Source: Marasmius tenuissimus
Lineage: Eukaryota; Basidiomycota; Agaricomycetes; Agaricales; Marasmiaceae
Assembly: GCA_029532415.1 (NCBI GenBank)
Contig: JAQOTA010000052.1
Span: 3,472,001 to 3,536,000 of the forward strand
Length of the DNA stretch: 64,000 nucleotides
Direction: 5' to 3'
Both the position numbers and the translations under genes were made by a program. The notes under the pieces were generated by a model. It had not been told where the DNA came from. It made no database searches and saw only the letters and a program-made list of their open reading frames with translations. Positions 22,158 to 54,933 of this stretch are shown here, piece after piece. Within the stretch, counting starts at the first letter, position 1, and every line of letters starts with the position of its first letter.

Positions 22158-23035
22158 ATGGCTCCCGCATTCCGTCTCGTCGTTGCAGCATTGGCTCTTG
22201 CCACCGCCGTCTTTGCAGCTCCTCTGGAGGAGCGCCAGTCCGGCTGTGCTGATGTTATGGTAGAGAACTCTGTCTCCCACCATGGCACATCCATACTGAC
22301 TCTGTTAAAGCTATTTTTCGCTCGTGGCACAACTGAGACAGCCCCCATCGGTCTCCCCGGAGGCGTCGGGGCCACTCTTCGAGCCAGCCTCAGTTCTCGC
22401 CTTGGCGGCCGCTCTTTGTCTTTCCAAGGGGTCGACTACCCTGCCAATATCGCGGGTTTCCTCGCCGGCGGTGACCCCGCAGGCTCTCGTACTATGGCGG
22501 CTGACGTGCGTGTCGCGACTCGGGTTCATTCTTCTGCCTAAAGTCACACTTCGTCCAGATTACCGGCGCGGCGAACTCCTGCCCCAATGTGAGTAATATT
22601 CCTTGTGCCTCTAACTCGGGCACTAAAAGTTACTTCGTAGGCGAAAATCGTGTCCGTTGGGTACAGCCAGGGTGCACAGCTTGTCCACAACTCCGCGAAG
22701 ATGCTCACAAGCGCCGTCACCAGCCGCGTCAACGCTGTTGTTACCTTCGTGAGTTAGGATTTTCACCCTGCTTATTCGATTAAGCTGAGACAGCATTTAC
22801 TAGGGTGACCCATTCCAGAACGAACCTGTGGGCAATATTCCCTCGAGCAACGTTCGGGTCGTCTGCCACACCGGCGACAATATCTGCGAAGGAGGTAACC
22901 TCGTCCTTGCCCCACACCTGTATGTCTTTCGATATTGCCTGTAATGATCCCACCACTGAAATAATGATATCATCACACAGTACTTATCAGCGAGACGTAC
23001 CGTCTGCTGCTGATTTTATAGTCAGCAAAGTTTAG
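22158..23035 (+). CDS. Cutinase (carbohydrate esterase family 5)
   Basis: Six exons join in frame (22158-22259, 22311-22505, 22559-22588, 22641-22748, 22804-22919, 22981-23035), giving 201 residues, slightly short of the usual ~210-230. A signal peptide (about residues 1-20) and a short pro-segment ending near EERQ are followed by the cutinase core: FARGTTE, GVDYPANIAGFLAGGDPAGS, the nucleophile elbow GYSQG (Ser118), VTFGDPFQNEPVG, TGDNIC (Asp170) and APH (His183), making the Ser-Asp-His triad. Cys30/Cys107 and Cys166/Cys173 match the two conserved disulphides. The enzyme should be secreted and cleave cutin-like polyester or short acyl esters. Introns are 51-60 nt and all have GT-AG ends. No lesion was seen. 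Confidence 0.93.
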
Positions 23036-25925: not shown

Positions 25926-28359
25926 ATGTCGGATATTACCCTTTGCTGTGGCGACGATCAAGGCTCTGGCTGTGGTGAGGTTTTCCCTCGAAAACAGAAA
26001 GCCGGCCTTTGTGCTGGTTGTCACGCAGTTGATATCTTATATCAACACGACGAGGCCAAGCAAACCATATTCCGGGCAAGTACCTTCCATCTCGCGCTCA
26101 CCGCTGTCTATTTCTAATTAACTGAATCTGTTTGACTAGAATATGCCACAGTGTACGTCCTGTGGAGTGAAATGGAAAAACCTCCGGGGTAACAAATGTG
26201 GTGGCTGTCGAAAAGGTACGTTCTCTTATTTGCAATTACATGTTTTTTGTTGATGTTCATGAGCACTGTTAGCTGACGAAGACACTGCATCAATGCCTCC
26301 TCCTCCATCGCAATCCACAATCCCCACTGCCCAGCACCATTCTGATATCACCGTCACTATACCAACTACACATCAGCCACCGGCGCCGCCCCCACCGACG
26401 CAAATCAATCAAGCGGTTGATCATCCTGGAAAAGCAATCTTCCAGTCACAAATGAAGGCTGGCAAGGCTGCTGCTGCTCGTGAGGCTGAGCAGCGATTCG
26501 CTCAACACCGACAAGCTGCAGTTTCTGGGAAGCATATGATCCAGACGTATTTGCATGCTTATACAGACGCCACAAAACCCAAGGCTATTATGTCAGTCGG
26601 ATCATCAATGGCATCCTGGGATGCTGACCGTCCGTTGAAAGGCAAGTTATCCTCAAGCTAATTTCAATCCACTGGTTTATTGATGACTGATTCAACTTCT
26701 CTTCTAGAAGCTATTGCTGCTAAGGTTCGAGAAATCAACGTCGAGGTCTGGGAACCAAACACCTCAGGAAGTCTTCAGGAGTAAGTGCTCCTCTTTTCAT
26801 ACTTGAACTAAACTCTATTATTAACAATAATTTTAGGGACGACTACTTCATCCGTCTACCTGGCACTCCCCCGATTCGTTTGTTGTACGGATCAGAACAT
26901 GGTACTATCGGAGAGCTCTACGATATTCACCGTAGCTACCCCGCCTCCCAGGAATCATGGTTCAGGCTCCCCGGAGAGACAGCATCCTCAAAGAAGACCA
27001 AGGAGTTCAAGGAAACTATACATATCTGGTTAGTTCTCCGCATTGCAAAGGTTTGACTTTTCCTTTTCCACTTTGGTTTGAGTCGCACTTAACCTACATC
27101 CCACATATTACATAACATCTTTAGATTGAGCAGAGAGACGGCCCTTTGCCGACTGGCTTCCTGGACAGCAATACTGGAGTTTCCAAGAAGCGTAAAGCAC
27201 CAGCGAACGAGGCAAATTCTACGGCCAAGAAGTCCCGAGGTGAGTAGGAGTACTCTGATCTGGGGTTTCAAGATTCTGACGTGATTCGGTGAGCAGTTGG
27301 TCCGCCCGTATCAACCTTTCAGCTTGACCTTGCGGTAGGAGGTACTCCATCGGGTCCTTTGCCAGTTGCAGAACCAGACGCGGGTGATGAGCTGGTCCAA
27401 TTCGAGTTTGCAGAATGGATTGAAACCCCTTCCGGACGAGGACAGTTCAATTGGACTGGAGACGATCTGCACGAGGGAAAACTAGCTTGCCGTCCATTTG
27501 CAAATGGCGCATCCAAACTAGTTTTCTTGGTATGTGCTATCGAATTATGATATTGTCCCCTTGCGCTGACTTCATATTATATCAAGCTCGTTATCGCCGG
27601 CAAGCGATATGTCGCAAAGCGTTATGCCGTTATCCCCGATGGTAACTCACTCAGCAATCTCGAGGATGTTGGCGAGATTACAATGCTTCAAAATCTACGC
27701 CTTCTTGAACAGGAGTTGAGAGTCCAGAAGCAGGGTGCATACTTCTTGAAGGAGTTTTACTCCACTGCACGGAAGGAGGGAGCAGTCCTCAGTACCGGTA
27801 AGTCAAGGGTGATTTCCCGGTCGCCGAATACTAAGCTGACATTTTGTCACTCGATATAGAGTTTACCTTCACCGATTGTTGGTTTGCCCGTGAGATTGTT
27901 AATGATGCGGCCCCAAGCCCATCTAAAGCCTCCGGAGTCGTGACAGAAGATTATGAGTTCCAGACTGCTGGTGACGATCCGGGCAGCATCTACTGGCTCA
28001 TTGAGCCCTATCACGCCATTCAGACTACCAAATACAGTGGCACACTTTCGGAATGTGACAAAAAGACCCTTCCCTTCAAGACAATGTCTGCTTTCGCACA
28101 TTTCACCCATTACTGGAGTTTCGGGACTCTTGTTTACGTTGATTTACAGTGTCAGTTTTCTTCTGCCTCAGGGACGGTAACTTACTGACATTGTCACTAG
28201 CCTCGCACGCATTCAAAAACGGTCGCGTCTCACGTGTCCTATTTGACACAATGACCCACACCCAAAAGAGGGGGTAAGTTCACTCTCTTGCTATAGTTCT
28301 GGCTATACAATCATCTGATTCATTTCAACTCACAGTTCCAGTGGTCCTGGTGATCACGG
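25926..28359 (+). pseudogene. Alpha-kinase (MHCK/eEF2K type) with zinc ribbons, 5' part, interrupted by retroelement
   Basis: Exons 1-10 plus the start of exon 11 join in frame (25926-26075, 26140-26215, 26273-26641, 26708-26780, 26837-27050, 27125-27239, 27297-27529, 27587-27797, 27860-28150, 28201-28273, 28336-28359). Exons 1-2 encode Cys-rich ribbons (CCGDDQGSGC, CAGC, CTSC, CGGC). A Pro/Thr-rich linker follows, then the atypical alpha-kinase domain: KRYVAKRY (ATP-binding lysine), AYFLKEFY, CWFAREIV, YWLIEP, LVYVDLQ and GPGDHG (the GxGxxG loop). Introns 1 and 3 use GC donors (GCAAGT). The frame meets the element exactly after the GDHG codons and stops within ~50 nt of LTR sequence. The missing 3' part is at 45128-45339. 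Without the insertion the protein would have 678 residues. Kinases of this type phosphorylate Ser/Thr, often in helices. Confidence 0.9.
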
Positions 28360-31061
28360 TGTAAAGCGCCACTCGCGGTGTATAATAAAATCTAACTCGT
28401 AGGTCAAATCCTTCCAACACTCAAGAGTGTAGCTGAAGGGTGCGGGAATCGGGGATCGGCGTTGATCGTAGGTTCCGCTCTTAGCCAGACTGCAATAGTA
28501 GGCTGAAGGAAATCTGACTCAAGAAACTATCCAACTAAGGTAGCTTCGCCTCTGAAACCAGTTCGGAGGTCAAAAGTGGGGTTCGGAAGAGAGGTTTATA
28601 GGTTGTTTCGGGAGTGTAGAGTTTGTTTGATGCTTCGGAAGTGCGTTCTTAGGCTTCAACTAGCTTCAGAACCACTCGAACAGCGAGGGGTAACAAGACA
28701 ATCAAATCAAACAATGGCAATAAGACTCCAATCAAGTCTGTCAATGACCGAAGACCAACTGTCAACGGCGAACAATATCCTCAGCCCAATTAGCTTCGGA
28801 AGTTCAACAATAGCTCAGCCAGTCAAGTCGGCGTCGCAGACAAACAATGCAAAGTCAAGGTCAAGCAAGTGTTCAATGGATTTTCTAGGTTTGGGCAAAC
28901 AAAGTTCTATTCCGTTCTAATGTCTCTCCAGAAGCGCTCCCGAGTCAACTGACTACCCAACAAGTGGAATAGCTTCGTATCCTCTGAATACTAATCGTAC
29001 GGATTGCTTGGGGATTCTTGATGAAAACCCCACTGCTTATATACCCTAGGAGGCTCTAATTCTACCTAATTGTACAAATATCGAATAAACCATGCCTCGG
29101 AGGCATAAACTACCTACTTTGGAATATACTTGGAGAGTTTTGTGTTTAATCTACGCTTTTGAACCCCAAAGTCAAAACCAATAATTTGCTTCGGAAGTAT
29201 CATCAGCCTCGAACATTCTCTAACATTCTTTTCTTCCGGGTCTCTCCTATCGATGGTTCCGTTCTGCCTATCTGCCTCCGCAGCATTGATTCTCCGGTTC
29301 TAGACCCTTCAATCGTCGTAGGTCATCCTGTTCTGTTTGCCTCCGAAGCATATACTCCCTTCGTCTGAAGCAAAGTACCTGCCTCCGAAGTGCTACTAGA
29401 TGCCTATATTCATGGAGTTACCCAGCCGTTCATAGCCAGGTCGATGTCCTTTCCGTAGCTCGGATAATTCTGAGGTCCTGCCATCCATATGGCCGCCCCA
29501 CTATATCCAATCTTGGTGCCTTGGATACCGGGTAATAGTTCAATGGTTCAGCCAGAACTCCCACTCGATTCTTTGGTACACCATTCCTTTCTTTCCAGTC
29601 CCTTGCCTCCCAGTGCAGTTGAGCACTGTGTTTTGCCACCAGCACCAACTATGCCCTTAGTACAGTCAATATCTCCATGTACGAGTATAAGGGAGGCACC
29701 TTGACGGTGCAACTCCTTCGATCACTTCTCGATCATTGTTTAGCGCCCAGTGCCTGGTTCGGATCCACGCCTCCGAAGCGCTAATTTCCTAGTTTCCGAA
29801 GTAAAATTTCCATTTCAGCGGCCAGTCCAGAGGTCAGTAAAAGCAAGTGCTAGGTTGTCCCAATTCCTTGCTTACTTTTCCCCGAGCGTACTATGGCACG
29901 CTTGCATAACATTGAAGACCACTTTCGCAACTTACTCTATAGTAAGCCTTTCTACTTTCTAGATTCCGAGGCGGCCTTCTGACTTCCTCTCCAGAGTTGT
30001 ATAAGCTCTGGTGGTATCCAGAAGATTACTCTGATAAGATCAAGGAGCGCCGCATCATCCTACCCATTCCACTCGACGCAGAACGAGAAGCTATCCTCGG
30101 AATCATCTTCCAGCAGTTCTTCCTCAGTCGCCACAGATCCGTCTACTGGGGCTACGTGATTCGTTACGACATGATCCAGGACGAAATCTATCTCTGCGAG
30201 GACACCTTTGACCACTTCATTCCTCACGACGCCAGGTCTATCATCGACATGGTTGCCGAGTCCATTGCTCGAGTGGGATTCCTCGACTTCAAAACCGCTC
30301 GTACTCCTGGAGCCGTCAACGCTTGGATCGACGCCGTCGTCAGCTGTGCTGAGTGCCCAGCACCTCCGAAGCTTGACTATACCAAGCTCTCGTTCTTCCG
30401 GTATTCCCCTGTCATGGGTCGTTGGCTCTCTCTATCCTTTTCTTTCTATAATCCTATTTTATGCGATCCATTCTATACCGATTATCTAGATCATGAAACC
30501 TTCATTGATTCTTATTATCCTGAAGATTCCGACGTAGATAATTACTTCGGTTGGGATGAGGTAGCTCTAGCCAATATGGATGACTAGCGTAACCTGTAGT
30601 ATACCTAGTATACTTGCATCAATCATGCCTCCAAAGCGAGGCCTCGACCTTATACCAAGCTTCTGAGGCTCGACTTAGTCTCTCTCTCCGACCATCCATG
30701 CTTCCGCGGTGACCTCCTCTGTCTATCCCTACTAGTACGGGTCTTCGTTAAGTCTGATTCTGTTATTCTAATCCTTAGTACGATGCCTCCGAGCCACTGG
30801 AGATATTCCCTTGTTATGACTACAGGTCCTAGTCGTGCCTCCGAAGTGATACTTTCGTCAGCTATACGACTCCTACAGTTTTCAGAGATAAGGAGAGACG
30901 CCTCCGAGGCGCTATTCTTTCCTTATGCTAGGATCTGAGCCTTTTACTAGCCGCTCGGGACTCGCTCTAGTACTCGTATTACCTAGTCATTTCTTATCTG
31001 TTTTATGCTAAAATCGCACAAAACAAGGCTCCGAAGCTGCTTTTTAATAGCAGGCGCTACA
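28360..31061 (-). repeat. LTR copy 1 (2,702 bp)
   Basis: Starts TGTAAAGCGCC and ends GGCGCTACA, an imperfect terminal inverted repeat with TG...CA ends. A minus-strand TATATAAG (29043-29036) is a candidate LTR promoter about 680 bp before the LTR's 3' end in element orientation. Many copies of a GCCTCCGAAGC-like motif are scattered through it. It carries a two-exon gene on the plus strand (29893-30587). Confidence 0.85.
29893..30587 (+). CDS. LTR-encoded two-exon protein, copy 1 (213 aa, unknown)
   Basis: Exon 1 (29893-29941) and exon 2 (29995-30587) join across GTAAGC...CCAG to an uninterrupted 213-residue frame. The protein starts MARLHNIEDHFRNLLYKLYKL and is rich in aromatic and acidic residues: WWYPEDYSDK, RSVYWGYVIRYDM, YLCEDTFDHF and a very acidic C-terminal tail (YYPEDSDVDN, ending ANMDD). 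One Cys pair (SCAEC) is seen. I do not recognise a family. It lies inside the LTR on the strand opposite to the element sense strand, so its intron would be kept in element RNA. Copies at 36926 and 43959 appear identical. The intact frame plus a clean intron argue for a real gene. Confidence 0.7.
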
Positions 31062-31077
31062 TCTCCCCCAAAGCAAA
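31062..31077 (-). promoter_or_regulatory. Polypurine tract before the LTR, copy 1
   Basis: On the minus strand TTTGCTTTGGGGGAGA directly abuts the TGTAGCGCC start of the LTR, the position and composition expected of the plus-strand primer of reverse transcription. A hairpin with 6-bp stem and TCCC loop (plus-strand reading, 31082-31097) lies 4 nt away on the internal side. Confidence 0.65.
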
Positions 31078-31499
31078 CTCCAGACCGTCCCCGGTCTAGT
31101 GTTTGTATGAGCGGAGGGGCTCTAGCGCGCATCCTTCCTTCTTTATTGACGGTTTCCCACGCCATCAGACGACTTCCGACCCTCTGTTCTTCAGAGGTAG
31201 GTCTTCCCATTAATTTCCGCTGGTCAGAGCACCGCCAATCACTCGTTGCTAGGGCAATCTGATCTTACCCGGGTCCCAGAACCTTCCCCAATATTCTATT
31301 TCCAAATCGAGTGAACTTCCAATCATCCTAGTGACTTCGAATGGTTCAACTTCCAAGTCACGAATATTTCTAAGTCCATCAGTCAGCCTCTGAAGTCATA
31401 GTTGAGTCAGACTGCGGAGGTTCCCGTCGGTTATTCCCGTAGGTCACGCAAATTGCCGAATGTGGCGGTTGTGGTTGAGTTTTGAACTTAGCCGAGGGG

Positions 31500-31520
31500 G
31501 TGCTTCTGAGGCTATATAAG
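31500..31520 (+). promoter_or_regulatory. Promoter module of the 821-aa cargo gene, copy 1
   Basis: GTGCTTCTGAGG followed at once by a TATATAAG box lies 56 bp before the cargo ATG at 31576, with a C/T-rich leader between. The same module recurs at 35291-35310 in the unit and in the second copy at 38533-38553. Confidence 0.65.
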
Positions 31521-31575
31521 ACCTGCGTTTTTCTCGCTAAGTCCCCATATTCTCCCCACATCCGCAGACTCCCCA

Positions 31576-34500
31576 ATGGCTCCTCCGCACCTCGTTACCC
31601 TCGCCCTTCAAAACTACGACATCCCTGCCGACTTCTTTCCCTTTATCTCTCCTCTCTATGACTTCATCCTAACTTTCCGCAAACTCGGCGCCGCGCTTCA
31701 CCAGAGCAATTCTCGCACCGAGCTACGCGAGTTATTCACCAAGCATAAGAGAATCTTGGTGAGAAATTTCCATTGATTCCTCTCATTCTGTTTGACCGAA
31801 CCTCTATTTCAGCTTCAACTTTCCCGGCTCCGATCAGAGAGTGGAGGGATGGAGGACACCTTTGCCGGTTCCTTCATCCTTACCCTCTTTGACGCTTGTC
31901 ATTCACATTTCAACGCCTCCGAACCGTTCAAGAAGGCTGTCAAAGGTTGGTGGCCTCAGTCGCATTCTCAGCGTAACAAGCTTCGGCGGCACGGCTGTTC
32001 TGTAAGCTCGGCCCCTCCTTTCTTTATTTCTATTTCCATTAATTCCTTCCTATACAGCCCTTCGACCTTTCCAAGCTTCCTGACGCCGCCATGGACCGTC
32101 ATTTCTTGTCTCTGAAGCCCTCCACACCGCCGGCTCCTTCTCAACATCTTGGTACCATCGACGTCGATGCCAGCGACGACAACAACGATACTGTTCAAGC
32201 TGGCCCATCCAGGGTCGTTGAGTGCGGAAGTTCTGACGATGACTCCTCCAACGCCGTCAGCGCTTCGGAGGAGCATGTCCCCACTCACGATTCCTCGTCT
32301 CGCGGCTCATCCTACGTTGTCCCTGATCCGCCTGAAGACCCTCAGGCCGGTGCTTCCTCCTCAGACGACAACGACTTTGAGCCTCCTCCAGCTTCCGCGG
32401 AGGAAATCAACAGGTTCGTTCTTTCTCAACGCCTCGGAGACATCATGCCAACTCCGATCTTCCCTCCCTCTCACCGTCGACCTCGTATCCGTCATCCTGT
32501 GTCTCCGAATCATCAACACTGGGGTCCTCGATCTAGGGTGAGTCCTCATATTCCTTCCTTGTTTCTAACTCAGTTATTAACTCCCTTGTGACAGCGCCGA
32601 TCTGCATCTTCTTCCTCAGATGCTGATTCTGACGATGAGGGGGAGACAGCTCCATCAATCCAGACTCGTCCCCTCATGTCTCGTACCGACCATGAGGATA
32701 TTGAAATGTCTGTGGTCGATGCTTCCGAACCATCAGCTGATGGTGGTTTCACTACGGTAAGCACATCTAACTCCTGTTTCCATTCTCAATTCTAACTTCT
32801 TATCCATTCAGAATAACATGGCCATCGACGACGAGGCCGGTGATGGAGAGGAGGACGACAAAGACATCGAGGAACACTCTATGTCTAGTCGCGAGGTTAA
32901 GGAGCGCCGGGAGGCTCTGTCATCCCTGAAGAACTTGGGGAACCCCCGAGTTCCTCGTCCTCGCTCAGAAACCCCACCCCCGATTCCTCCTTCCGCGGCG
33001 GTAATCAAGGTCAGTCCTTCTTCTTCCTCACTTCATTCTCTTTGGTCTAACTTAATTTCCTTCAGACTCGAATTGGACGAACAGTGAACGCTCCGAGGCG
33101 TCCAGGTAGTTCAACGGCGGTCATACCTACCGTAAGTCTTCTTTTCTTGTCTAAGGAATTCTTCTCATCCTTTATCCTCAGATGCGTCCTTCATCTGGTC
33201 CTTTGACCTCGAAGCGGAAGCGCGAGTCTACCCCGGAGCCTCAGCATTCTACTCGAGCTCGCTCAATGTCTGCTGCGGCAGCTCCCGCTTCTGAAGATGA
33301 GGAGTCCAGTGGATCCGACTCTCCCCCTCCTAAGAAGGCGAAGACCTCCAGCAAGGCAAAGGGAAAGGGGCCGGCTCATCAGCACTCTGGTTCTCGTTCC
33401 CGTGCGCGTTTTTATGAGCGCCCTCAGTACGGAACACCCCCTCCCGACTTCAAATCCCCTGACGATATGGAAATCCGCGACGCGGACTCTGTTCTTGGCA
33501 CCCCCAATAAGTCGGTGAGTCTCTTCCCCTTTACTCGGCTTATTTCCTGGCTCTGACTTATTTCCCAGCCTGCTCCACTCTGGACCTCACTCCCCGGTAC
33601 CAACAATGCCGACGAGGAGAGGCCCGAGTTCTGGGACCCCGTCAATGGTTATTTCTTGTCGAAAGGTCAATCTGGAGTTCCCGACGGAGTTATCCAAGGT
33701 AAGTCTCCCAGACTCATCTCTTCTCTATTCTCTCTAATCTTGTCCTACAGACCTCCGTGGCTACCTTTCGGTCCCAGGTCAACTTGACCTCCATGTTAAC
33801 CACTTTGTTAACGCCACGGCTCCAATGCGTGCAGTGAGTACTTCTGCCTTATTCCTTTCTTGAGTCTTGACTCTGATTCTTACTTCAGCCTGCTCTGGGT
33901 CGCTCAAAGCTGGTGTGCTTTAGCTGCGTGCTTCACCCGGAGACTTGCGTTCCATTTCCTGCCGACGACGACCAACATCTCTCCAACTCACGGAAGTGTC
34001 TCTTCTGCGTGCAGAAGAAGCTATCATGCGTAATGAGCTGTCCTTCCGAGGAGTTCGACAAGATGAAGGAGCTCTGCGCAGGCTGGGGTGAAAGTAGTGA
34101 GGCTGGTACGTGTCTTTCCCCGTCCATTTCCTACAGTTCTGATCCTCTTTTCTTAGGACTGAGCCGTCAATTCGAGGAGATCGCCAATGGTCGGCGCACC
34201 GTCGAGAGGCTTATCAACACTCGGAACGATTTGGACACCGAGATTCAACGGCTCGCCGATCGTGATGCCACTTTGGTTGCGAAGCTTCGGGAGTGCTGTC
34301 GCGACCCTCGAGACATACTTCGAGTTCTCTCCCGCAACGACCCCAACTTCCAGCTCAGCATGCCGACTATCATGCAGCTATGCTCGGTTTTCGGATGGGA
34401 CTTCTCTGAACTCCCCGAACCTTTTCAGTTTGGTCGGCACACAGATGGCACCCCCTACCTTCGGAACCAGGCTCAGGGTGACGTTCTGATGATCCCTTCC

Positions 34501-34634
34501 ACTTCCGAGTTCCCTACTGGCACTCCCGCCCCTGCTGCCGGTCCTTCTCGTGTAAGTCCTCTTTTCCACTTTCTTCACCTCCTTTTACTAAGTGCTTGCC
34601 TTAGAAGGGTGGTCTCTTGTTTTCTCTCGATTGA
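31576..34634 (+). CDS. Cargo gene of the retroelement, copy 1: 821-aa nuclear-like protein with Zn2Cys6-type cysteines
   Basis: Twelve exons join in frame: 31576-31758, 31813-32001, 32058-32537, 32595-32756, 32812-33009, 33066-33131, 33182-33514, 33569-33698, 33751-33833, 33889-34105, 34157-34551 and 34605-34634. The N terminus (~125 residues) is a helical region. A long acidic/Ser-Pro region follows, with basic nuclear-type signals (SKRKRES, PPKKAKTSSKAKGKG). Exon 10 has CFSCVLHPETC and, 16 residues on, CLFCVQKKLSC, each C-x2-C-x6-C as in Gal4-type binuclear zinc clusters but with a long linker. A coiled-coil-like stretch (RTVERLINTRNDLDTEIQRL) follows. It looks like a DNA-binding or chromatin protein, but no transposase or polymerase motif is seen. 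Every intron is a clean GT-AG intron with an intact frame, which implies selection or recent origin. It lies antisense to the element. Confidence 0.8.
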
Positions 34635-35169
34635 AATATAGCTCCGTCTTTAGATCTATCCGGGTACTCTTGTACCTTATTTCTTGTGTAGCATACAGTC
34701 CCTTGGACTTTAAATTCTGTATTTTCAACTTCCTCAGTACTTTATTAAGTACTTTATTTCTTGAGTAGTTCGTAGTCCCCTGGACTTTAAATTTTGTATC
34801 ATTATCTATTCCTTCGTCCCTATGGGACTTATAACATCTTCATATCTTGTCTTTCAGTTCTGGTGTGAATCCCAGTCTTGAGCCTCGAAGGCTCTTCCGA
34901 CTTTAAGTTCATTGTGACGCTTTCAGACTTGACAATCTATCCAGCCGAGGCGTACGAGTGGTTTTCTTTTCCGTTCCCATTCGTTAATTCTGTCTTCAGG
35001 ACTTCGCTCGGCCGATGGCTAGAGCTTCCGAAGCTCGGTTTTATCATCCTTGTGGTTCAGAGCCACTCTGTTCAGGCACCTCCGAACCGTCAAATGCGCT
35101 CAAATTCTCAAGGTCAAATTATTTGACTCCGAGGGCGCTTATTCGTTGAAATCGCAAAATCTTAGTCCC

Positions 35170-35208
35170 TCTCCCCCAAAGCAAAAGAAAATCAACGTCC
35201 CCGTTGAT
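35170..35208 (-). other. Second polypurine-tract plus hairpin module near the primer-binding end
   Basis: The 16-mer TCTCCCCCAAAGCAAA (35170-35185) is an exact copy of 31062-31077. A hairpin follows 5 nt later (ATCAACG-TCCC-CGTTGAT, 35191-35208). At the LTR copy the hairpin stem is different (AGACCG/CGGTCT) but the loop TCCC and position are the same. The copy in the second unit is at 42203-42241. Confidence 0.6.
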
Positions 35209-35290
35209 AGGCAGTTTACCCATTGTTCCGGACTCGCAAAATTTTCTTTACTTCGTAGGGACCTGAGATGCCTAAATTCCCGACGTCCAT

Positions 35291-35310
35291 GTGCTTCTGA
35301 GGTATAAAAG
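35291..35310 (+). promoter_or_regulatory. Second promoter module, pointing into the LTR
   Basis: GTGCTTCTGAGG followed directly by TATAAAAG repeats the layout at 31500-31520. It lies 82 bp before the LTR start (35393). The first ATG downstream, at the LTR junction, is followed at once by TAA, so no gene starts there directly. It may be the promoter remnant of a gene cut by the LTR boundary, or may drive RNA across the LTR. It also occurs at 42324-42343. Confidence 0.5.
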
Positions 35311-35373
35311 ACTAGCTATCTTCGCCTTGTCCGCCCATCGACACACAGTCGTTCTCTTGCCCATCATTCCTTG

Positions 35374-35390
35374 CGACGCGGTGGGCTCCA
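35374..35390 (-). other. Primer-binding-site-like sequence, unit 1
   Basis: Two nucleotides after the LTR end (element orientation) comes TGGAGCCCACCGCGTCG. A TGG start complementary to tRNA CCA at this position is the classical retroelement primer site. The matching tRNA was not identified. The second unit has it at 42407-42423. Confidence 0.55.
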
Positions 35391-35392
35391 GA

Positions 35393-38094
35393 TGTAAAGC
35401 GCCACTCGCGGTGTATAATAAAATCTAACTCGTAGGTCAAATCCTTCCAACACTCAAGAGTGTAGCTGAAGGGTGCGGGAATCGGGGATCGGCGTTGATC
35501 GTAGGTTCCGCTCTTAGCCAGACTGCAATAGTAGGCTGAAGGAAATCTGACTCAAGAAACTATCCAACTAAGGTAGCTTCGCCTCTGAAACCAGTTCGGA
35601 GGTCAAAAGTGGGGTTCGGAAGAGAGGTTTATAGGTTGTTTCGGGAGTGTAGAGTTTGTTTGATGCTTCGGAAGTGCGTTCTTAGGCTTCAACTAGCTTC
35701 AGAACCACTCGAACAGCGAGGGGTAACAAGACAATCAAATCAAACAATGGCAATAAGACTCCAATCAAGTCTGTCAATGACCGAAGACCAACTGTCAACG
35801 GCGAACAATATCCTCAGCCCAATTAGCTTCGGAAGTTCAACAATAGCTCAGCCAGTCAAGTCGGCGTCGCAGACAAACAATGCAAAGTCAAGGTCAAGCA
35901 AGTGTTCAATGGATTTTCTAGGTTTGGGCAAACAAAGTTCTATTCCGTTCTAATGTCTCTCCAGAAGCGCTCCCGAGTCAACTGACTACCCAACAAGTGG
36001 AATAGCTTCGTATCCTCTGAATACTAATCGTACGGATTGCTTGGGGATTCTTGATGAAAACCCCACTGCTTATATACCCTAGGAGGCTCTAATTCTACCT
36101 AATTGTACAAATATCGAATAAACCATGCCTCGGAGGCATAAACTACCTACTTTGGAATATACTTGGAGAGTTTTGTGTTTAATCTACGCTTTTGAACCCC
36201 AAAGTCAAAACCAATAATTTGCTTCGGAAGTATCATCAGCCTCGAACATTCTCTAACATTCTTTTCTTCCGGGTCTCTCCTATCGATGGTTCCGTTCTGC
36301 CTATCTGCCTCCGCAGCATTGATTCTCCGGTTCTAGACCCTTCAATCGTCGTAGGTCATCCTGTTCTGTTTGCCTCCGAAGCATATACTCCCTTCGTCTG
36401 AAGCAAAGTACCTGCCTCCGAAGTGCTACTAGATGCCTATATTCATGGAGTTACCCAGCCGTTCATAGCCAGGTCGATGTCCTTTCCGTAGCTCGGATAA
36501 TTCTGAGGTCCTGCCATCCATATGGCCGCCCCACTATATCCAATCTTGGTGCCTTGGATACCGGGTAATAGTTCAATGGTTCAGCCAGAACTCCCACTCG
36601 ATTCTTTGGTACACCATTCCTTTCTTTCCAGTCCCTTGCCTCCCAGTGCAGTTGAGCACTGTGTTTTGCCACCAGCACCAACTATGCCCTTAGTACAGTC
36701 AATATCTCCATGTACGAGTATAAGGGAGGCACCTTGACGGTGCAACTCCTTCGATCACTTCTCGATCATTGTTTAGCGCCCAGTGCCTGGTTCGGATCCA
36801 CGCCTCCGAAGCGCTAATTTCCTAGTTTCCGAAGTAAAATTTCCATTTCAGCGGCCAGTCCAGAGGTCAGTAAAAGCAAGTGCTAGGTTGTCCCAATTCC
36901 TTGCTTACTTTTCCCCGAGCGTACTATGGCACGCTTGCATAACATTGAAGACCACTTTCGCAACTTACTCTATAGTAAGCCTTTCTACTTTCTAGATTCC
37001 GAGGCGGCCTTCTGACTTCCTCTCCAGAGTTGTATAAGCTCTGGTGGTATCCAGAAGATTACTCTGATAAGATCAAGGAGCGCCGCATCATCCTACCCAT
37101 TCCACTCGACGCAGAACGAGAAGCTATCCTCGGAATCATCTTCCAGCAGTTCTTCCTCAGTCGCCACAGATCCGTCTACTGGGGCTACGTGATTCGTTAC
37201 GACATGATCCAGGACGAAATCTATCTCTGCGAGGACACCTTTGACCACTTCATTCCTCACGACGCCAGGTCTATCATCGACATGGTTGCCGAGTCCATTG
37301 CTCGAGTGGGATTCCTCGACTTCAAAACCGCTCGTACTCCTGGAGCCGTCAACGCTTGGATCGACGCCGTCGTCAGCTGTGCTGAGTGCCCAGCACCTCC
37401 GAAGCTTGACTATACCAAGCTCTCGTTCTTCCGGTATTCCCCTGTCATGGGTCGTTGGCTCTCTCTATCCTTTTCTTTCTATAATCCTATTTTATGCGAT
37501 CCATTCTATACCGATTATCTAGATCATGAAACCTTCATTGATTCTTATTATCCTGAAGATTCCGACGTAGATAATTACTTCGGTTGGGATGAGGTAGCTC
37601 TAGCCAATATGGATGACTAGCGTAACCTGTAGTATACCTAGTATACTTGCATCAATCATGCCTCCAAAGCGAGGCCTCGACCTTATACCAAGCTTCTGAG
37701 GCTCGACTTAGTCTCTCTCTCCGACCATCCATGCTTCCGCGGTGACCTCCTCTGTCTATCCCTACTAGTACGGGTCTTCGTTAAGTCTGATTCTGTTATT
37801 CTAATCCTTAGTACGATGCCTCCGAGCCACTGGAGATATTCCCTTGTTATGACTACAGGTCCTAGTCGTGCCTCCGAAGTGATACTTTCGTCAGCTATAC
37901 GACTCCTACAGTTTTCAGAGATAAGGAGAGACGCCTCCGAGGCGCTATTCTTTCCTTATGCTAGGATCTGAGCCTTTTACTAGCCGCTCGGGACTCGCTC
38001 TAGTACTCGTATTACCTAGTCATTTCTTATCTGTTTTATGCTAAAATCGCACAAAACAAGGCTCCGAAGCTGCTTTTTAATAGCAGGCGCTACA
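35393..38094 (-). repeat. LTR copy 2 (2,702 bp)
   Basis: Appears identical to LTR copy 1, shifted by 7,033 bp. It is the shared middle LTR of the array. Confidence 0.85.
36926..37620 (+). CDS. LTR-encoded two-exon protein, copy 2 (213 aa, unknown)
   Basis: Exons 36926-36974 and 37028-37620. The protein appears identical to that of the gene at 29893-30587. In this copy the DNA upstream of the LTR is element internal sequence with the TATAAAAG module at 35303, so it is the copy most likely to see that promoter, about 1.6 kb away. Confidence 0.7.
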
Positions 38095-38110
38095 TCTCCC
38101 CCAAAGCAAA
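38095..38110 (-). promoter_or_regulatory. Polypurine tract before the LTR, copy 2
   Basis: Same sequence and position relative to the LTR as at 31062-31077. The accompanying hairpin is at 38115-38130. Confidence 0.65.
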
Positions 38111-38608
38111 CTCCAGACCGTCCCCGGTCTAGTGTTTGTATGAGCGGAGGGGCTCTAGCGCGCATCCTTCCTTCTTTATTGACGGTTTCCCACGCCATCA
38201 GACGACTTCCGACCCTCTGTTCTTCAGAGGTAGGTCTTCCCATTAATTTCCGCTGGTCAGAGCACCGCCAATCACTCGTTGCTAGGGCAATCTGATCTTA
38301 CCCGGGTCCCAGAACCTTCCCCAATATTCTATTTCCAAATCGAGTGAACTTCCAATCATCCTAGTGACTTCGAATGGTTCAACTTCCAAGTCACGAATAT
38401 TTCTAAGTCCATCAGTCAGCCTCTGAAGTCATAGTTGAGTCAGACTGCGGAGGTTCCCGTCGGTTATTCCCGTAGGTCACGCAAATTGCCGAATGTGGCG
38501 GTTGTGGTTGAGTTTTGAACTTAGCCGAGGGGGTGCTTCTGAGGCTATATAAGACCTGCGTTTTTCTCGCTAAGTCCCCATATTCTCCCCACATCCGCAG
38601 ACTCCCCA

Positions 38609-41600
38609 ATGGCTCCTCCGCACCTCGTTACCCTCGCCCTTCAAAACTACGACATCCCTGCCGACTTCTTTCCCTTTATCTCTCCTCTCTATGACTTCAT
38701 CCTAACTTTCCGCAAACTCGGCGCCGCGCTTCACCAGAGCAATTCTCGCACCGAGCTACGCGAGTTATTCACCAAGCATAAGAGAATCTTGGTGAGAAAT
38801 TTCCATTGATTCCTCTCATTCTGTTTGACCGAACCTCTATTTCAGCTTCAACTTTCCCGGCTCCGATCAGAGAGTGGAGGGATGGAGGACACCTTTGCCG
38901 GTTCCTTCATCCTTACCCTCTTTGACGCTTGTCATTCACATTTCAACGCCTCCGAACCGTTCAAGAAGGCTGTCAAAGGTTGGTGGCCTCAGTCGCATTC
39001 TCAGCGTAACAAGCTTCGGCGGCACGGCTGTTCTGTAAGCTCGGCCCCTCCTTTCTTTATTTCTATTTCCATTAATTCCTTCCTATACAGCCCTTCGACC
39101 TTTCCAAGCTTCCTGACGCCGCCATGGACCGTCATTTCTTGTCTCTGAAGCCCTCCACACCGCCGGCTCCTTCTCAACATCTTGGTACCATCGACGTCGA
39201 TGCCAGCGACGACAACAACGATACTGTTCAAGCTGGCCCATCCAGGGTCGTTGAGTGCGGAAGTTCTGACGATGACTCCTCCAACGCCGTCAGCGCTTCG
39301 GAGGAGCATGTCCCCACTCACGATTCCTCGTCTCGCGGCTCATCCTACGTTGTCCCTGATCCGCCTGAAGACCCTCAGGCCGGTGCTTCCTCCTCAGACG
39401 ACAACGACTTTGAGCCTCCTCCAGCTTCCGCGGAGGAAATCAACAGGTTCGTTCTTTCTCAACGCCTCGGAGACATCATGCCAACTCCGATCTTCCCTCC
39501 CTCTCACCGTCGACCTCGTATCCGTCATCCTGTGTCTCCGAATCATCAACACTGGGGTCCTCGATCTAGGGTGAGTCCTCATATTCCTTCCTTGTTTCTA
39601 ACTCAGTTATTAACTCCCTTGTGACAGCGCCGATCTGCATCTTCTTCCTCAGATGCTGATTCTGACGATGAGGGGGAGACAGCTCCATCAATCCAGACTC
39701 GTCCCCTCATGTCTCGTACCGACCATGAGGATATTGAAATGTCTGTGGTCGATGCTTCCGAACCATCAGCTGATGGTGGTTTCACTACGGTAAGCACATC
39801 TAACTCCTGTTTCCATTCTCAATTCTAACTTCTTATCCATTCAGAATAACATGGCCATCGACGACGAGGCCGGTGATGGAGAGGAGGACGACAAAGACAT
39901 CGAGGAACACTCTATGTCTAGTCGCGAGGTTAAGGAGCGCCGGGAGGCTCTGTCATCCCTGAAGAACTTGGGGAACCCCCGAGTTCCTCGTCCTCGCTCA
40001 GAAACCCCACCCCCGATTCCTCCTTCCGCGGCGGTAATCAAGGTCAGTCCTTCTTCTTCCTCACTTCATTCTCTTTGGTCTAACTTAATTTCCTTCAGAC
40101 TCGAATTGGACGAACAGTGAACGCTCCGAGGCGTCCAGGTAGTTCAACGGCGGTCATACCTACCGTAAGTCTTCTTTTCTTGTCTAAGGAATTCTTCTCA
40201 TCCTTTATCCTCAGATGCGTCCTTCATCTGGTCCTTTGACCTCGAAGCGGAAGCGCGAGTCTACCCCGGAGCCTCAGCATTCTACTCGAGCTCGCTCAAT
40301 GTCTGCTGCGGCAGCTCCCGCTTCTGAAGATGAGGAGTCCAGTGGATCCGACTCTCCCCCTCCTAAGAAGGCGAAGACCTCCAGCAAGGCAAAGGGAAAG
40401 GGGCCGGCTCATCAGCACTCTGGTTCTCGTTCCCGTGCGCGTTTTTATGAGCGCCCTCAGTACGGAACACCCCCTCCCGACTTCAAATCCCCTGACGATA
40501 TGGAAATCCGCGACGCGGACTCTGTTCTTGGCACCCCCAATAAGTCGGTGAGTCTCTTCCCCTTTACTCGGCTTATTTCCTGGCTCTGACTTATTTCCCA
40601 GCCTGCTCCACTCTGGACCTCACTCCCCGGTACCAACAATGCCGACGAGGAGAGGCCCGAGTTCTGGGACCCCGTCAATGGTTATTTCTTGTCGAAAGGT
40701 CAATCTGGAGTTCCCGACGGAGTTATCCAAGGTAAGTCTCCCAGACTCATCTCTTCTCTATTCTCTCTAATCTTGTCCTACAGACCTCCGTGGCTACCTT
40801 TCGGTCCCAGGTCAACTTGACCTCCATGTTAACCACTTTGTTAACGCCACGGCTCCAATGCGTGCAGTGAGTACTTCTGCCTTATTCCTTTCTTGAGTCT
40901 TGACTCTGATTCTTACTTCAGCCTGCTCTGGGTCGCTCAAAGCTGGTGTGCTTTAGCTGCGTGCTTCACCCGGAGACTTGCGTTCCATTTCCTGCCGACG
41001 ACGACCAACATCTCTCCAACTCACGGAAGTGTCTCTTCTGCGTGCAGAAGAAGCTATCATGCGTAATGAGCTGTCCTTCCGAGGAGTTCGACAAGATGAA
41101 GGAGCTCTGCGCAGGCTGGGGTGAAAGTAGTGAGGCTGGTACGTGTCTTTCCCCGTCCATTTCCTACAGTTCTGATCCTCTTTTCTTAGGACTGAGCCGT
41201 CAATTCGAGGAGATCGCCAATGGTCGGCGCACCGTCGAGAGGCTTATCAACACTCGGAACGATTTGGACACCGAGATTCAACGGCTCGCCGATCGTGATG
41301 CCACTTTGGTTGCGAAGCTTCGGGAGTGCTGTCGCGACCCTCGAGACATACTTCGAGTTCTCTCCCGCAACGACCCCAACTTCCAGCTCAGCATGCCGAC
41401 TATCATGCAGCTATGCTCGGTTTTCGGATGGGACTTCTCTGAACTCCCCGAACCTTTTCAGTTTGGTCGGCACACAGATGGCACCCCCTACCTTCGGAAC
41501 CAGGCTCAGGGTGACGTTCTGATGATCCCTTCCACTTCCGAGTTCCCTACTGGCACTCCCGCCCCTGCTGCCGGTCCTTCTCGTGTAAGTCCTCTTTTCC

Positions 41601-41667
41601 ACTTTCTTCACCTCCTTTTACTAAGTGCTTGCCTTAGAAGGGTGGTCTCTTGTTTTCTCTCGATTGA
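38609..41667 (+). CDS. Cargo gene of the retroelement, copy 2 (821-aa protein)
   Basis: Twelve exons as in copy 1, each shifted by 7,033 bp (first ATG 38609, stop ending 41667). Every open frame I compared between the two copies matches residue for residue, so both copies appear functional. Its promoter module is at 38533-38553. The third unit of the array is truncated at the LTR and lacks this gene. Confidence 0.8.
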
Positions 41668-42425
41668 AATATAGCTCCGTCTTTAGATCTATCCGGGTAC
41701 TCTTGTACCTTATTTCTTGTGTAGCATACAGTCCCTTGGACTTTAAATTCTGTATTTTCAACTTCCTCAGTACTTTATTAAGTACTTTATTTCTTGAGTA
41801 GTTCGTAGTCCCCTGGACTTTAAATTTTGTATCATTATCTATTCCTTCGTCCCTATGGGACTTATAACATCTTCATATCTTGTCTTTCAGTTCTGGTGTG
41901 AATCCCAGTCTTGAGCCTCGAAGGCTCTTCCGACTTTAAGTTCATTGTGACGCTTTCAGACTTGACAATCTATCCAGCCGAGGCGTACGAGTGGTTTTCT
42001 TTTCCGTTCCCATTCGTTAATTCTGTCTTCAGGACTTCGCTCGGCCGATGGCTAGAGCTTCCGAAGCTCGGTTTTATCATCCTTGTGGTTCAGAGCCACT
42101 CTGTTCAGGCACCTCCGAACCGTCAAATGCGCTCAAATTCTCAAGGTCAAATTATTTGACTCCGAGGGCGCTTATTCGTTGAAATCGCAAAATCTTAGTC
42201 CCTCTCCCCCAAAGCAAAAGAAAATCAACGTCCCCGTTGATAGGCAGTTTACCCATTGTTCCGGACTCGCAAAATTTTCTTTACTTCGTAGGGACCTGAG
42301 ATGCCTAAATTCCCGACGTCCATGTGCTTCTGAGGTATAAAAGACTAGCTATCTTCGCCTTGTCCGCCCATCGACACACAGTCGTTCTCTTGCCCATCAT
42401 TCCTTGCGACGCGGTGGGCTCCAGA

Positions 42426-45127
42426 TGTAAAGCGCCACTCGCGGTGTATAATAAAATCTAACTCGTAGGTCAAATCCTTCCAACACTCAAGAGTGTAGCT
42501 GAAGGGTGCGGGAATCGGGGATCGGCGTTGATCGTAGGTTCCGCTCTTAGCCAGACTGCAATAGTAGGCTGAAGGAAATCTGACTCAAGAAACTATCCAA
42601 CTAAGGTAGCTTCGCCTCTGAAACCAGTTCGGAGGTCAAAAGTGGGGTTCGGAAGAGAGGTTTATAGGTTGTTTCGGGAGTGTAGAGTTTGTTTGATGCT
42701 TCGGAAGTGCGTTCTTAGGCTTCAACTAGCTTCAGAACCACTCGAACAGCGAGGGGTAACAAGACAATCAAATCAAACAATGGCAATAAGACTCCAATCA
42801 AGTCTGTCAATGACCGAAGACCAACTGTCAACGGCGAACAATATCCTCAGCCCAATTAGCTTCGGAAGTTCAACAATAGCTCAGCCAGTCAAGTCGGCGT
42901 CGCAGACAAACAATGCAAAGTCAAGGTCAAGCAAGTGTTCAATGGATTTTCTAGGTTTGGGCAAACAAAGTTCTATTCCGTTCTAATGTCTCTCCAGAAG
43001 CGCTCCCGAGTCAACTGACTACCCAACAAGTGGAATAGCTTCGTATCCTCTGAATACTAATCGTACGGATTGCTTGGGGATTCTTGATGAAAACCCCACT
43101 GCTTATATACCCTAGGAGGCTCTAATTCTACCTAATTGTACAAATATCGAATAAACCATGCCTCGGAGGCATAAACTACCTACTTTGGAATATACTTGGA
43201 GAGTTTTGTGTTTAATCTACGCTTTTGAACCCCAAAGTCAAAACCAATAATTTGCTTCGGAAGTATCATCAGCCTCGAACATTCTCTAACATTCTTTTCT
43301 TCCGGGTCTCTCCTATCGATGGTTCCGTTCTGCCTATCTGCCTCCGCAGCATTGATTCTCCGGTTCTAGACCCTTCAATCGTCGTAGGTCATCCTGTTCT
43401 GTTTGCCTCCGAAGCATATACTCCCTTCGTCTGAAGCAAAGTACCTGCCTCCGAAGTGCTACTAGATGCCTATATTCATGGAGTTACCCAGCCGTTCATA
43501 GCCAGGTCGATGTCCTTTCCGTAGCTCGGATAATTCTGAGGTCCTGCCATCCATATGGCCGCCCCACTATATCCAATCTTGGTGCCTTGGATACCGGGTA
43601 ATAGTTCAATGGTTCAGCCAGAACTCCCACTCGATTCTTTGGTACACCATTCCTTTCTTTCCAGTCCCTTGCCTCCCAGTGCAGTTGAGCACTGTGTTTT
43701 GCCACCAGCACCAACTATGCCCTTAGTACAGTCAATATCTCCATGTACGAGTATAAGGGAGGCACCTTGACGGTGCAACTCCTTCGATCACTTCTCGATC
43801 ATTGTTTAGCGCCCAGTGCCTGGTTCGGATCCACGCCTCCGAAGCGCTAATTTCCTAGTTTCCGAAGTAAAATTTCCATTTCAGCGGCCAGTCCAGAGGT
43901 CAGTAAAAGCAAGTGCTAGGTTGTCCCAATTCCTTGCTTACTTTTCCCCGAGCGTACTATGGCACGCTTGCATAACATTGAAGACCACTTTCGCAACTTA
44001 CTCTATAGTAAGCCTTTCTACTTTCTAGATTCCGAGGCGGCCTTCTGACTTCCTCTCCAGAGTTGTATAAGCTCTGGTGGTATCCAGAAGATTACTCTGA
44101 TAAGATCAAGGAGCGCCGCATCATCCTACCCATTCCACTCGACGCAGAACGAGAAGCTATCCTCGGAATCATCTTCCAGCAGTTCTTCCTCAGTCGCCAC
44201 AGATCCGTCTACTGGGGCTACGTGATTCGTTACGACATGATCCAGGACGAAATCTATCTCTGCGAGGACACCTTTGACCACTTCATTCCTCACGACGCCA
44301 GGTCTATCATCGACATGGTTGCCGAGTCCATTGCTCGAGTGGGATTCCTCGACTTCAAAACCGCTCGTACTCCTGGAGCCGTCAACGCTTGGATCGACGC
44401 CGTCGTCAGCTGTGCTGAGTGCCCAGCACCTCCGAAGCTTGACTATACCAAGCTCTCGTTCTTCCGGTATTCCCCTGTCATGGGTCGTTGGCTCTCTCTA
44501 TCCTTTTCTTTCTATAATCCTATTTTATGCGATCCATTCTATACCGATTATCTAGATCATGAAACCTTCATTGATTCTTATTATCCTGAAGATTCCGACG
44601 TAGATAATTACTTCGGTTGGGATGAGGTAGCTCTAGCCAATATGGATGACTAGCGTAACCTGTAGTATACCTAGTATACTTGCATCAATCATGCCTCCAA
44701 AGCGAGGCCTCGACCTTATACCAAGCTTCTGAGGCTCGACTTAGTCTCTCTCTCCGACCATCCATGCTTCCGCGGTGACCTCCTCTGTCTATCCCTACTA
44801 GTACGGGTCTTCGTTAAGTCTGATTCTGTTATTCTAATCCTTAGTACGATGCCTCCGAGCCACTGGAGATATTCCCTTGTTATGACTACAGGTCCTAGTC
44901 GTGCCTCCGAAGTGATACTTTCGTCAGCTATACGACTCCTACAGTTTTCAGAGATAAGGAGAGACGCCTCCGAGGCGCTATTCTTTCCTTATGCTAGGAT
45001 CTGAGCCTTTTACTAGCCGCTCGGGACTCGCTCTAGTACTCGTATTACCTAGTCATTTCTTATCTGTTTTATGCTAAAATCGCACAAAACAAGGCTCCGA
45101 AGCTGCTTTTTAATAGCAGGCGCTACA
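42426..45127 (-). repeat. LTR copy 3 (2,702 bp), right end of the insertion
   Basis: Ends in GGCGCTACA directly before the second ACGG target duplication (45128-45131), which fixes the LTR boundary independently of any model. In copies 1 and 2 the same end is followed by TCTCCCCC of the internal region. Confidence 0.87.
43959..44653 (+). CDS. LTR-encoded two-exon protein, copy 3 (213 aa, unknown)
   Basis: Exons 43959-44007 and 44061-44653. The protein appears identical to those at 29893 and 36926. This is the copy nearest the right host junction. Confidence 0.7.
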
Positions 45128-45339
45128 ACGGTGATGATGGAATCAATAACTTTGTGCTCAATCACCAGTGCAACACTATCTGTGACTCCCTTGGACTTTT
45201 GGACACCAACTCTTCGGATGAGGAGGATACACAAGTCAAAACAAGGAAGGGTCGGAATACAAGATCGAAAAAGACAAGTGGTAGGCATGGGACGGTTGGA
45301 CTGCCTCCAGATGTTGACTTGTCAGACTCGGATGATTAA
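45128..45339 (+). pseudogene. Alpha-kinase 3' part, separated by the retroelement
   Basis: After the ACGG duplication the frame resumes as GDDGINNFVLNHQCNTICDSL, the end of an alpha-kinase domain with its zinc-binding Cys-x3-Cys. A Ser/Asp-rich, lysine-containing tail ends DLSDSDD at the stop (45337-45339). Joined directly to the frame ending at 28359, it completes the GxGxxG-to-zinc region. No separate start codon or promoter is likely for this 70-codon remnant. Confidence 0.88.
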
Positions 45340-53781: not shown

Positions 53782-54933
53782 ATGCGTTCATTCTTCGTCG
53801 GTCTCTGCGCTCTCCTCAGCGTCGCCACTGCAGGCCTGGCTATTCCTCAGCCTCTGTCTGCTCGCCACCCACCCGTTCCAGTTGAGCCTGGTCATGTTCG
53901 GCTGCTGATCTATCTCAAGAAACGCGACGACATCAGTTTCCAACAATTTTCCGATCATTGGCGTGTGATTCACCCACCTCTCTTCCTGGACACCAAGGCC
54001 GTGAAGGAAAACGTTACGAGATACGAACAGGTCTGTTCGCCTTTTCCAACGTTAAGTACAACCTCTGACAGGTTGTCACAATTCTATAGTACCATGTCAA
54101 TCAAGAGTGGAAACAGAAACTTATCCAAGAAGGAAAAAGCGTTGCCCCGAATGTCGATGGCATAGTCCTCATCGAAGCGGAGTCGATGGACAGGGCCCTG
54201 TCGGTCAGTTAAACCTACAACCATCGTTTCGACCCCGCTAATCACTGAATCAAACGAATGTTTAGGCATTCTCCGGTGATGAATACGTCGAGAAGGTGTT
54301 CCCAGACAGCGTGCAGTGGTCCGACGTCAGTAGCAACATCGTCGCTTCTTCGTTCCAAATCGCCACCGTCTTCGACAAGGAGCCTAAGCCTGTTCCGGCC
54401 TCTCAGCTTGGAGTCATTCGTACCGACATACAGACTCTCTTGGTTGACGTCGAGAGGAAAAGCGGTATGAGCGTTTCTGAGTTCGGCACCTATTGGAGGG
54501 AAGTGAACGCTCCCCATCTGCAACATTTGATGGAGGAGACTGGAGCAGGTGCTGGGCTCACGAAGAATGAGCTGGTGGGTTTCTCATGATACAATATTTA
54601 CCGTTTTGCTCGAGCTCACCCGACATTGATATAGCTCACTGTGGATCCTGACGTTGGTAACACCCCGACTCCTTTCCCTATCGAGGCCGTCAGCTACGAT
54701 GGAATGAGTGTTTTCAACGGACCTTCGTTCCAAACGATTTTCGAGGTCAGTTTGCCCTTGGGACGTCGACGAATCTGAGTGCTGACAACGAAAATACTCC
54801 CCTTAAACAGAACCTCAAGGACCAGAGATTGGTCTCGTTCTTCCAACAAGACGCACCTAACTTTGTCAACGTGGACAGGCCTATAGGATACCTGCCTGTC
54901 GATGTGGTTACTTTCAACATTGACAGGTCTTAG
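53782..54933 (+). CDS. Secreted double-EthD-domain protein, third paralogue
   Basis: Five exons, all joined in phase 0 (53782-54030, 54090-54203, 54266-54574, 54635-54745, 54811-54933), give 301 residues. A signal peptide (MRSFFVGLCALLSVATAGLA) precedes the first EthD module (HVRLLIYLKKRDDISFQQFS with DHWRVIHPPLFLD) and a second one (VERKSGMSVSEFGTYWREVN). The last exon ends VDVVTFNIDRS, like the VDVVSFQIPK end of the paralogue at 7720. The exon plan and splice positions match that gene, so both derive from one ancestor. No lesion was seen. Substrate unknown; a secreted alpha-beta-barrel protein is the safest description. Confidence 0.85.

Follow-up and report, generated by a model that had tools for sequence, protein, structure and literature searches.

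A 64,000-nucleotide stretch of the Marasmius tenuissimus genome (hereafter the window, meaning the whole stretch that was analysed) holds, at 28360-45127, an array in which three long terminal repeats (LTRs) alternate with two internal regions. We conclude that this array is very probably one insertion of an internally deleted Marasmius element of the Ty3/gypsy type, about 20.3 kb long when complete, that carries antisense genes of its own. In this reading, the parent element has 2.7-kb LTRs and a primer-binding site and encodes gag, protease, reverse transcriptase (RT)-RNaseH and integrase in sense and the spliced genes C, B and A in antisense, C and B being placed past integrase, ahead of the 3' LTR, and A inside the LTR; the window copy has lost 10.6 kb, from about 40 nucleotides before gene C to the 14th nucleotide of the primer site.

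The array is built of two units (28360-35392 and 35393-42425) that are identical over 7,033 bp each, followed by a third LTR; all three LTRs are identical, read TGTAAAG...CTACA at their ends on the plus strand, and the array as a whole is flanked by ACGG on both sides. The identity of the units and LTRs, together with the ACGG flanks, is beyond chance. An earlier sequence-only reading had taken the target duplication, the TG...CA ends, a primer-binding-like site and a polypurine tract (PPT) to indicate an LTR element whose sense strand is the minus strand, and this is borne out: PPT and primer site both lie on the minus strand, and the latter adjoins the right LTR and has 14 nucleotides complementary to the 3' end of tRNA-Lys, including CCA. 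We also considered the plus-sense orientation and rejected it, because 29 identical tRNA 3' ends match the site on the minus strand and the plus-strand signals were not seen (by eye, the left LTR is not followed by a TGG-type tRNA-complementary site, nor is the right LTR preceded by a run of purines). The same reading had noted that no retroviral gene is present; accordingly, a tblastn search of the whole window with the gag, protease, RT and integrase frames of a full-length relative on contig C30 detected none of the four in the array, and two chance-level matches (E 0.19 and 0.74) both lie outside it, such that the window copy has no pol of its own, as an autonomous element would. The two different spliced genes with intact frames that had been noted on the opposite strand were recovered on the plus strand as genes A and B, the latter with 11 introns. 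The features of the array are as follows.

28360-45127, element sense on the minus strand: LTR-internal-LTR-internal-LTR array
28356-28359 (left) and 45128-45131 (right): target site duplication ACGG, flanking the whole array
28360-31061, minus strand: LTR 1 (3' LTR in element sense), 2,702 bp
29893-30587, plus strand: gene A in LTR 1, exons 29893-29941 and 29995-30587, one intron, 213 amino acids; repeated at 36926-37620 and 43959-44653
31062-31077, minus strand: PPT TTTGCTTTGGGGGAGA adjoining LTR 1; second occurrence adjoining LTR 2 at 38095-38110
31082-31097: hairpin 1, stem AGACC/GGTCT and loop GTCCCC (plus strand)
31576-34634, plus strand: gene B, 12 exons, 11 GT-AG introns, 821 amino acids; second copy at 38609-41667
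35170-35185, minus strand: PPT sequence, second occurrence, within the internal region; again at 42203-42218
35191-35208: hairpin 2, stem ATCAAC/GTTGAT and loop GTCCCC as in hairpin 1
35376-35377: deletion junction, at which 10,607 bp of the C30 sequence are absent; same junction at 42409/42410
35377-35390, minus strand: remnant of the tRNA-Lys primer-binding site, 14 of 18 nucleotides (TGGAGCCCACCGCG in element sense); again at 42410-42423
35393-38094, minus strand: LTR 2, same as LTR 1
38095-42425, minus strand: second internal region, same as 31062-35392
42426-45127, minus strand: LTR 3 (5' LTR in element sense), same as LTR 1

The parent element was found elsewhere in the assembly (71 Mb in 70 contigs), at two places, on contigs C30 (20,360 bp) and C32 (20,323 bp), where the window LTR is followed by positions 1-4315 of the internal region, about 10.6 kb of additional sequence, the primer site and a second LTR. 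Read on the minus strand in the direction of the element, the additional part encodes first a gag-like protein, then an aspartyl protease, RT-RNaseH and, last, integrase. In Pfam scans of these frames, Asp_protease_2 (2.6e-6), RT_RNaseH_2 (3.6e-9) and Integrase_H2C2 (1e-15) scored above the cut-offs and zf-CCHC (0.0013, on the CCHC knuckle of the gag-like protein) and rve (0.0026) below them; RVT_1 did not reach E 0.01 in the parent, and the RT is known from its sequence matches in the PDB, in which the Ty3 gag-pol chain 7q5b matches both the RT (1.4e-13) and the integrase (7.4e-10) of the parent. The gag and RT frames are open in the C30 copy and interrupted in the C32 copy. The family thus has the gag-protease-RT-RNaseH-integrase order, the direct TG...CA LTRs with a short target duplication, and the primer site and PPT on one strand that characterize Ty3/gypsy elements. 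These copies are the gag-pol partner, sharing LTR ends, primer site and PPT, that the sequence-only reading had proposed to look for. What it had named as evidence to the contrary was not encountered: pol lies on the minus strand in both full-length copies read, relatives with a transposase and no LTR-type structure were not seen, and all 27 LTR loci fetched outside the window start with TGTAAAG and end with CTACA.

Because the best 40 of 203 candidates were scored in the LTR search, LTR counts are lower bounds: there are at least 45 matches, and in at least 35, among which are the three LTRs of the window, the LTR is covered from end to end. By their flanks, 19 of the 27 non-window loci are solo LTRs and eight border internal sequence, and the internal region itself is matched at about 12 loci, some of them degraded or cut by contig ends. 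An exact 4-bp duplication is kept at 16 of the 19 solo LTRs; with that of the window, all 17 exact target duplications have the form NCGN, and CG occupies the middle of 45 of 47 outer flank 4-mers (the CG frequency in the window is 0.058). Integration sites are CpG-centred, and the NCGN targets point to an integrase with a marked preference of this kind. Separately, LTR copies occur as inverted pairs at two loci, L040 (C7:2286304-2291496) and L041 (C30:2123306-2129102), possibly inverted nested insertions or foldback assemblies.

The C30 copy has the whole 18-nucleotide primer site, which is complementary at 18 of 18 positions to the 3' end of tRNA-Lys with CCA added. A tRNA-arm pattern had 32 matches in the genome and two in the control, and 29 of the 32 have a 3' end complementary to the C30 site; the three of these 29 that were checked are all tRNA-Lys (CTT or TTT) with short introns, and ARAGORN, run without introns on the same three loci, returned one tRNA-Lys, one unnamed tRNA and one locus without a call. 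A variant primer site, CCTCAAGGTCGGGCT, was found at seven places, in C7, C20, C30 (two), C32, C39 and C40, all of them element copies or remnants by position. We considered that this variant is the primer site for a second tRNA and rejected the idea, as it is absent from the tRNA-arm pattern matches.

Comparison of copies allowed us to ask how the antisense genes have evolved. Gene B was read in eight copies, of which the seven outside this array are 85.6-98.4% identical to the window internal region. All 11 introns have GT-AG ends in 8/8 copies, and the frame is open in seven, the copy on C7 having one stop. The ratio of nonsynonymous to synonymous substitution rates (dN/dS) is 0.04-0.19 in 28/28 pairs, and indels in multiples of three make up four of four in exons and eight of 35 in introns. 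A separately annotated protein of 822 amino acids from another assembly (P0001) is 97% identical to the B product over residues 600-821 and, compared by eye, reads across the exon joins of gene B. Gene A, present three times in the array because it lies inside the LTR, is intact in 24 of 28 LTR sequences and has a nonsynonymous/synonymous ratio per site of 0.18 for variants shared by at least two copies and 0.40 for singletons; P0009-P0019 are its homologues. In the parent, integrase and B are separated by a third antisense gene, C, with six exons, five introns and a product of 364 amino acids; it is intact in three of the four copies read (C30, C32 and one older copy), with dN/dS of 0.20-0.26 against the older copy. 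With 1, 11 and 5 introns in A, B and C, the set has 17 in total. Homologues of all three are present in Marasmius sp. AFHP31, where those of B and C have consecutive locus tags (PQX77_021542-021544 and PQX77_019582-019583) and sit on contigs that do not differ in length, and M. fiardii has a weak relative of gene C (35%). Sequence comparison shows that genes A-C belong to the element itself and are under purifying selection, for which the evidence is strongest in B. The antisense placement would account for the retention of introns: only the sense genomic RNA would be reverse transcribed, and antisense introns, which would be present there as reverse complements and so not be recognised, would be kept.

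Pfam scans of the A and B products gave no family at the cut-off, the one weak match being Arc_MA on B (E 0.3). In six of eight homologues the B product has six cysteines spaced C-x2-C-x6-C-x16-C-x2-C-x6-C; the Zn_clus profile did not match it, so that the spacing alone is present. The cysteines are followed by a helix-prone stretch with seven hydrophobic a/d positions in 35, compared with a mean of 3.4 and a maximum of eight in a shuffle control that is biased in that windows with proline were skipped. Gene B, with its Cys6 cluster and helix-prone stretch, may act in the nucleus.

The PPT sequence (plus strand TCTCCCCCAAAGCAAA) occurs twice per unit, once at the LTR and once about 0.2 kb before the junction, and was found in 8/8 element copies read. 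Each PPT copy is followed by a hairpin, and the two hairpins have a common loop and stems that are different yet fully complementary; both are unchanged in 8/8 copies, including the copy of 85.6% identity. The paired PPT/hairpin pattern has 23 matches in the genome and none in the control, and all 23 lie by position in internal-region matches of the family. Compared with 200 shuffles, the hairpin 1 stretch folds better than 199 and the hairpin 2 stretch better than 185, the latter being weak if taken by itself. The hairpin modules might serve as PPT and central PPT signals, as operators of B and C, or in both capacities.

Gene B differs from the rest of the element in how it varies between the two full-length copies. 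Identity between C30 and C32 is 100% for protease, 99.8% for integrase, 99.7% for RT, 99.5% for gag, 98.9% for gene C and 98.7% for gene A, and 91.5% for gene B. The differences among window, C30 and C32 fall in blocks, with 99 runs of informative sites compared with a mean of 219 in shuffled data (minimum 191 of 1,000), and in the other four triplets tested the number of runs was likewise below every shuffle. We read this pattern as a sign that lineages of the element have recombined in and around gene B, probably by template switching; uneven local rates could contribute to the clustering of variants. Going further, one can picture a lineage with its own set of three antisense regulatory genes, able to retain introns solely through their reversed orientation in the genomic RNA, in which B binds the hairpin modules at the PPT copies and upstream of B and C and is reshuffled by template switching, a scenario that we regard as doubtful. 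If it were true, gene B would be continually reshuffled between lineages of the element while gag-pol stays uniform, as expected in a conflict with host silencing or rival elements.

The position of the deletion bears on how the array arose. Compared with C30, the window units lack gene C, integrase, RT-RNaseH, protease, gag and the leader, with the left edge of the deletion about 40 nucleotides before gene C and the right edge at the 14th nucleotide of the primer site. BLAST had hinted at a 9-bp overlap, and a deletion driven by microhomology was therefore considered and rejected: side by side, the sequences have no homology at the joint, and TCCTT occurs nearby in both flanks. Because the edge sits inside the primer site, aberrant (second-)strand transfer during reverse transcription suggests itself, and we give it even chances of being the cause. 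A pol-less non-autonomous family, similar to large retrotransposon derivatives (LARDs) and mobilised in trans by the 20-kb element, would be consistent with the LTRs, PPT and 14 of 18 primer-site nucleotides that the window copy keeps and with the three identical LTRs, which indicate a recent event. Several dispersed pol-less copies, as in LARDs or terminal-repeat retrotransposons in miniature (TRIMs), are, however, not seen among the internal-region matches. Of these matches (14 of 14 candidates scored), only the window units match the internal region through position 4331, the others ending at or before 4315, and copies of the pol-less unit with different flanks, which the sequence-only reading had suggested seeking, did not turn up. 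In addition, among the gene B loci listed from 58 of 72 scored candidates, each of the 11 outside the window lies no more than 20 kb from pol-region DNA, which at the locus near 11 kb on C30 is only a 169-bp piece at 6 kb. We therefore consider the pol-less form to be a deletion at a single locus and not a family, and a LARD-like family to be extremely unlikely. The proposal of a pol-less element holds for the array itself and gives way, for the family, to a parent with gag-pol; the window copy is an ordinary deletion derivative of that parent. For the three-LTR form, we somewhat favour unequal LTR-LTR exchange, the reciprocal of the process that yields solo LTRs: because 19 of 27 LTR loci are solo, such exchange appears to be common here, and a three-LTR array would be an expected reciprocal product. 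That the tandem form is an assembly artefact or a collapsed or expanded repeat, with one unit or some other number being real, is unlikely; it would agree with the complete identity of the two units over 7,033 bp and with the contigs (C20, C27, C32, C35 and C39) that begin or end inside element copies, yet the flanks carry an exact NCGN duplication like those of 16 independent solo LTRs, and sharing of LTRs in tandem is what frequent LTR-LTR exchange predicts.

The origin and role of genes A-C can be weighed in the same manner. They bear introns, as host genes do, and lie in antisense, as a transduced gene could, so that they might be recently captured host genes carried as passengers; yet no host paralogue was found, the matches obtained with the AFHP31 homologues as reference (58 of 72 candidates scored for B, 39 of 39 for C) sit in copies or remnants of the element, and the second species has conserved B and C as a pair, with the weak relative of C in M. 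fiardii, all of which makes capture very unlikely. That the antisense proteins have no role and the purifying signal stems from antisense RNA or DNA structure is in keeping with antisense open reading frames (ORFs) of plant and fungal elements, for which the available text of PMC7264820 gives no determined function; selection on the frame of gene B, where changes are strongly biased towards synonymous ones and indels preserve the frame in exons but mostly not in introns, leaves this idea scarcely probable. Of the options for the role of the antisense proteins, regulation is, by analogy with the antisense proteins of Retand and Grande and with HBZ of HTLV-1, the one we place first, tentatively and at somewhat less than even odds. 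Several points weigh against our interpretation. In gene A, four of 28 copies are broken, the singletons include two stops and the structure model is poor (mean predicted local distance difference test score 48). The fourth copy of gene C, on C24, is broken by a stop and by the loss of a splice donor, and dN/dS for this gene between C30 and C32 is 2.2, on eight changes. The 4-mers flanking the C30 copy are unlike (ACGG/TCGC), which means that no single intact insertion gave rise to both of its ends. With the patterns tried, no tRNA gene matched the variant primer site, and priming by tRNA-Lys is firm for the C30-type site only. Finally, transcription and splicing of A, B and C are predicted from frames, conserved splice sites and the gene predictions of other groups.

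The neighbourhood of the array includes pieces of an Argonaute gene at 11126-13641 on the minus strand (Piwi 1.4e-46, ArgoL1 2.5e-12), about 15 kb from the array, and a piece of a cutinase-like gene at 22158-22541 (Cutinase 1e-9). Short ORFs at 5068-5994, 7720-8172, 53782-54165 and 55963-56340 look alike by eye and may be one repeated gene family; the one that was tested (53782-54162) had no Pfam match.

Among known systems, Ty3 (Metaviridae) is similar to the parent in its protease-RT-RNaseH-integrase order and in the match of its gag-pol chain to the parent's RT and integrase, and differs in lacking the antisense gene cluster and the tRNA-Lys primer of the C30 copy. The parent is also nearly four times as large as Ty3. 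HBZ is a spliced antisense gene encoding a basic leucine zipper (bZIP) protein of an animal retrovirus. It lies near the 3' LTR of human T-cell leukaemia virus (HTLV)-1 and regulates the element. We draw an analogy with HBZ, which is named in the available text of PMC11963269, and claim no homology; the Marasmius antisense proteins had no Pfam domain that we could find. Among fungal elements, Zhao et al. reportedly described in 2011 an antisense gene, brtn, in Boty-like elements of Botrytis cinerea. As the citing papers describe these Ty3-gypsy elements (available text of PMC7264820, PMC4227169 and PMC8365987), brtn lies between pol and the 3' LTR, as do antisense genes here, and is the one antisense gene named, compared with three in the Marasmius element. 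Antisense genes of LTR retrotransposons have, according to the work cited in the available text of PMC7264820, been described since the 1990s, mostly as plant ORFs of undetermined function, and antisense proteins of Retand and HTLV have been proposed or reported to be regulatory (available text of PMC11963269). According to the available text of both articles, Retand, Grande and RIRE2 resemble our parent in that an extended stretch separates pol from the 3' LTR and holds antisense gene(s) conserved in most copies, for which a regulatory role is considered. A conserved antisense gene in this position is thus present in Marasmius, whereas Pfam, scanned with A and B at E values up to 1 and with C at values up to 0.01, did not yield TRP28 (PF04195), another mark of the Retand type. 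The plant genes are described as ORFs, the word intron does not occur in the main texts of PMC7264820 and PMC11963269, and the Marasmius element differs in having three antisense genes, of which A, with 1 intron, is located inside the LTR, while B and C have 11 and 5 introns.

The suggestion that no described family has this layout therefore needs to be narrowed. Antisense genes as such are known from Grande, RIRE2, Retand and Boty; a search of the literature at the level of titles and abstracts, with subscription journals thinly covered, gave no fungal LTR element whose antisense genes have multiple introns, and none is described in the available text of PMC9674265. As far as searched, a set of three antisense genes that has 17 introns in all and places one gene within the LTR is new. 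The element provides a fungal system that combines this gene set with strong codon-level constraint on B and a second species for comparison, and the window offers a natural deletion copy that retains two of the three antisense genes without gag-pol. Two questions thereby become testable, namely whether the element is controlled by its antisense proteins and whether it is the antisense position that allows introns to persist in a retroelement.

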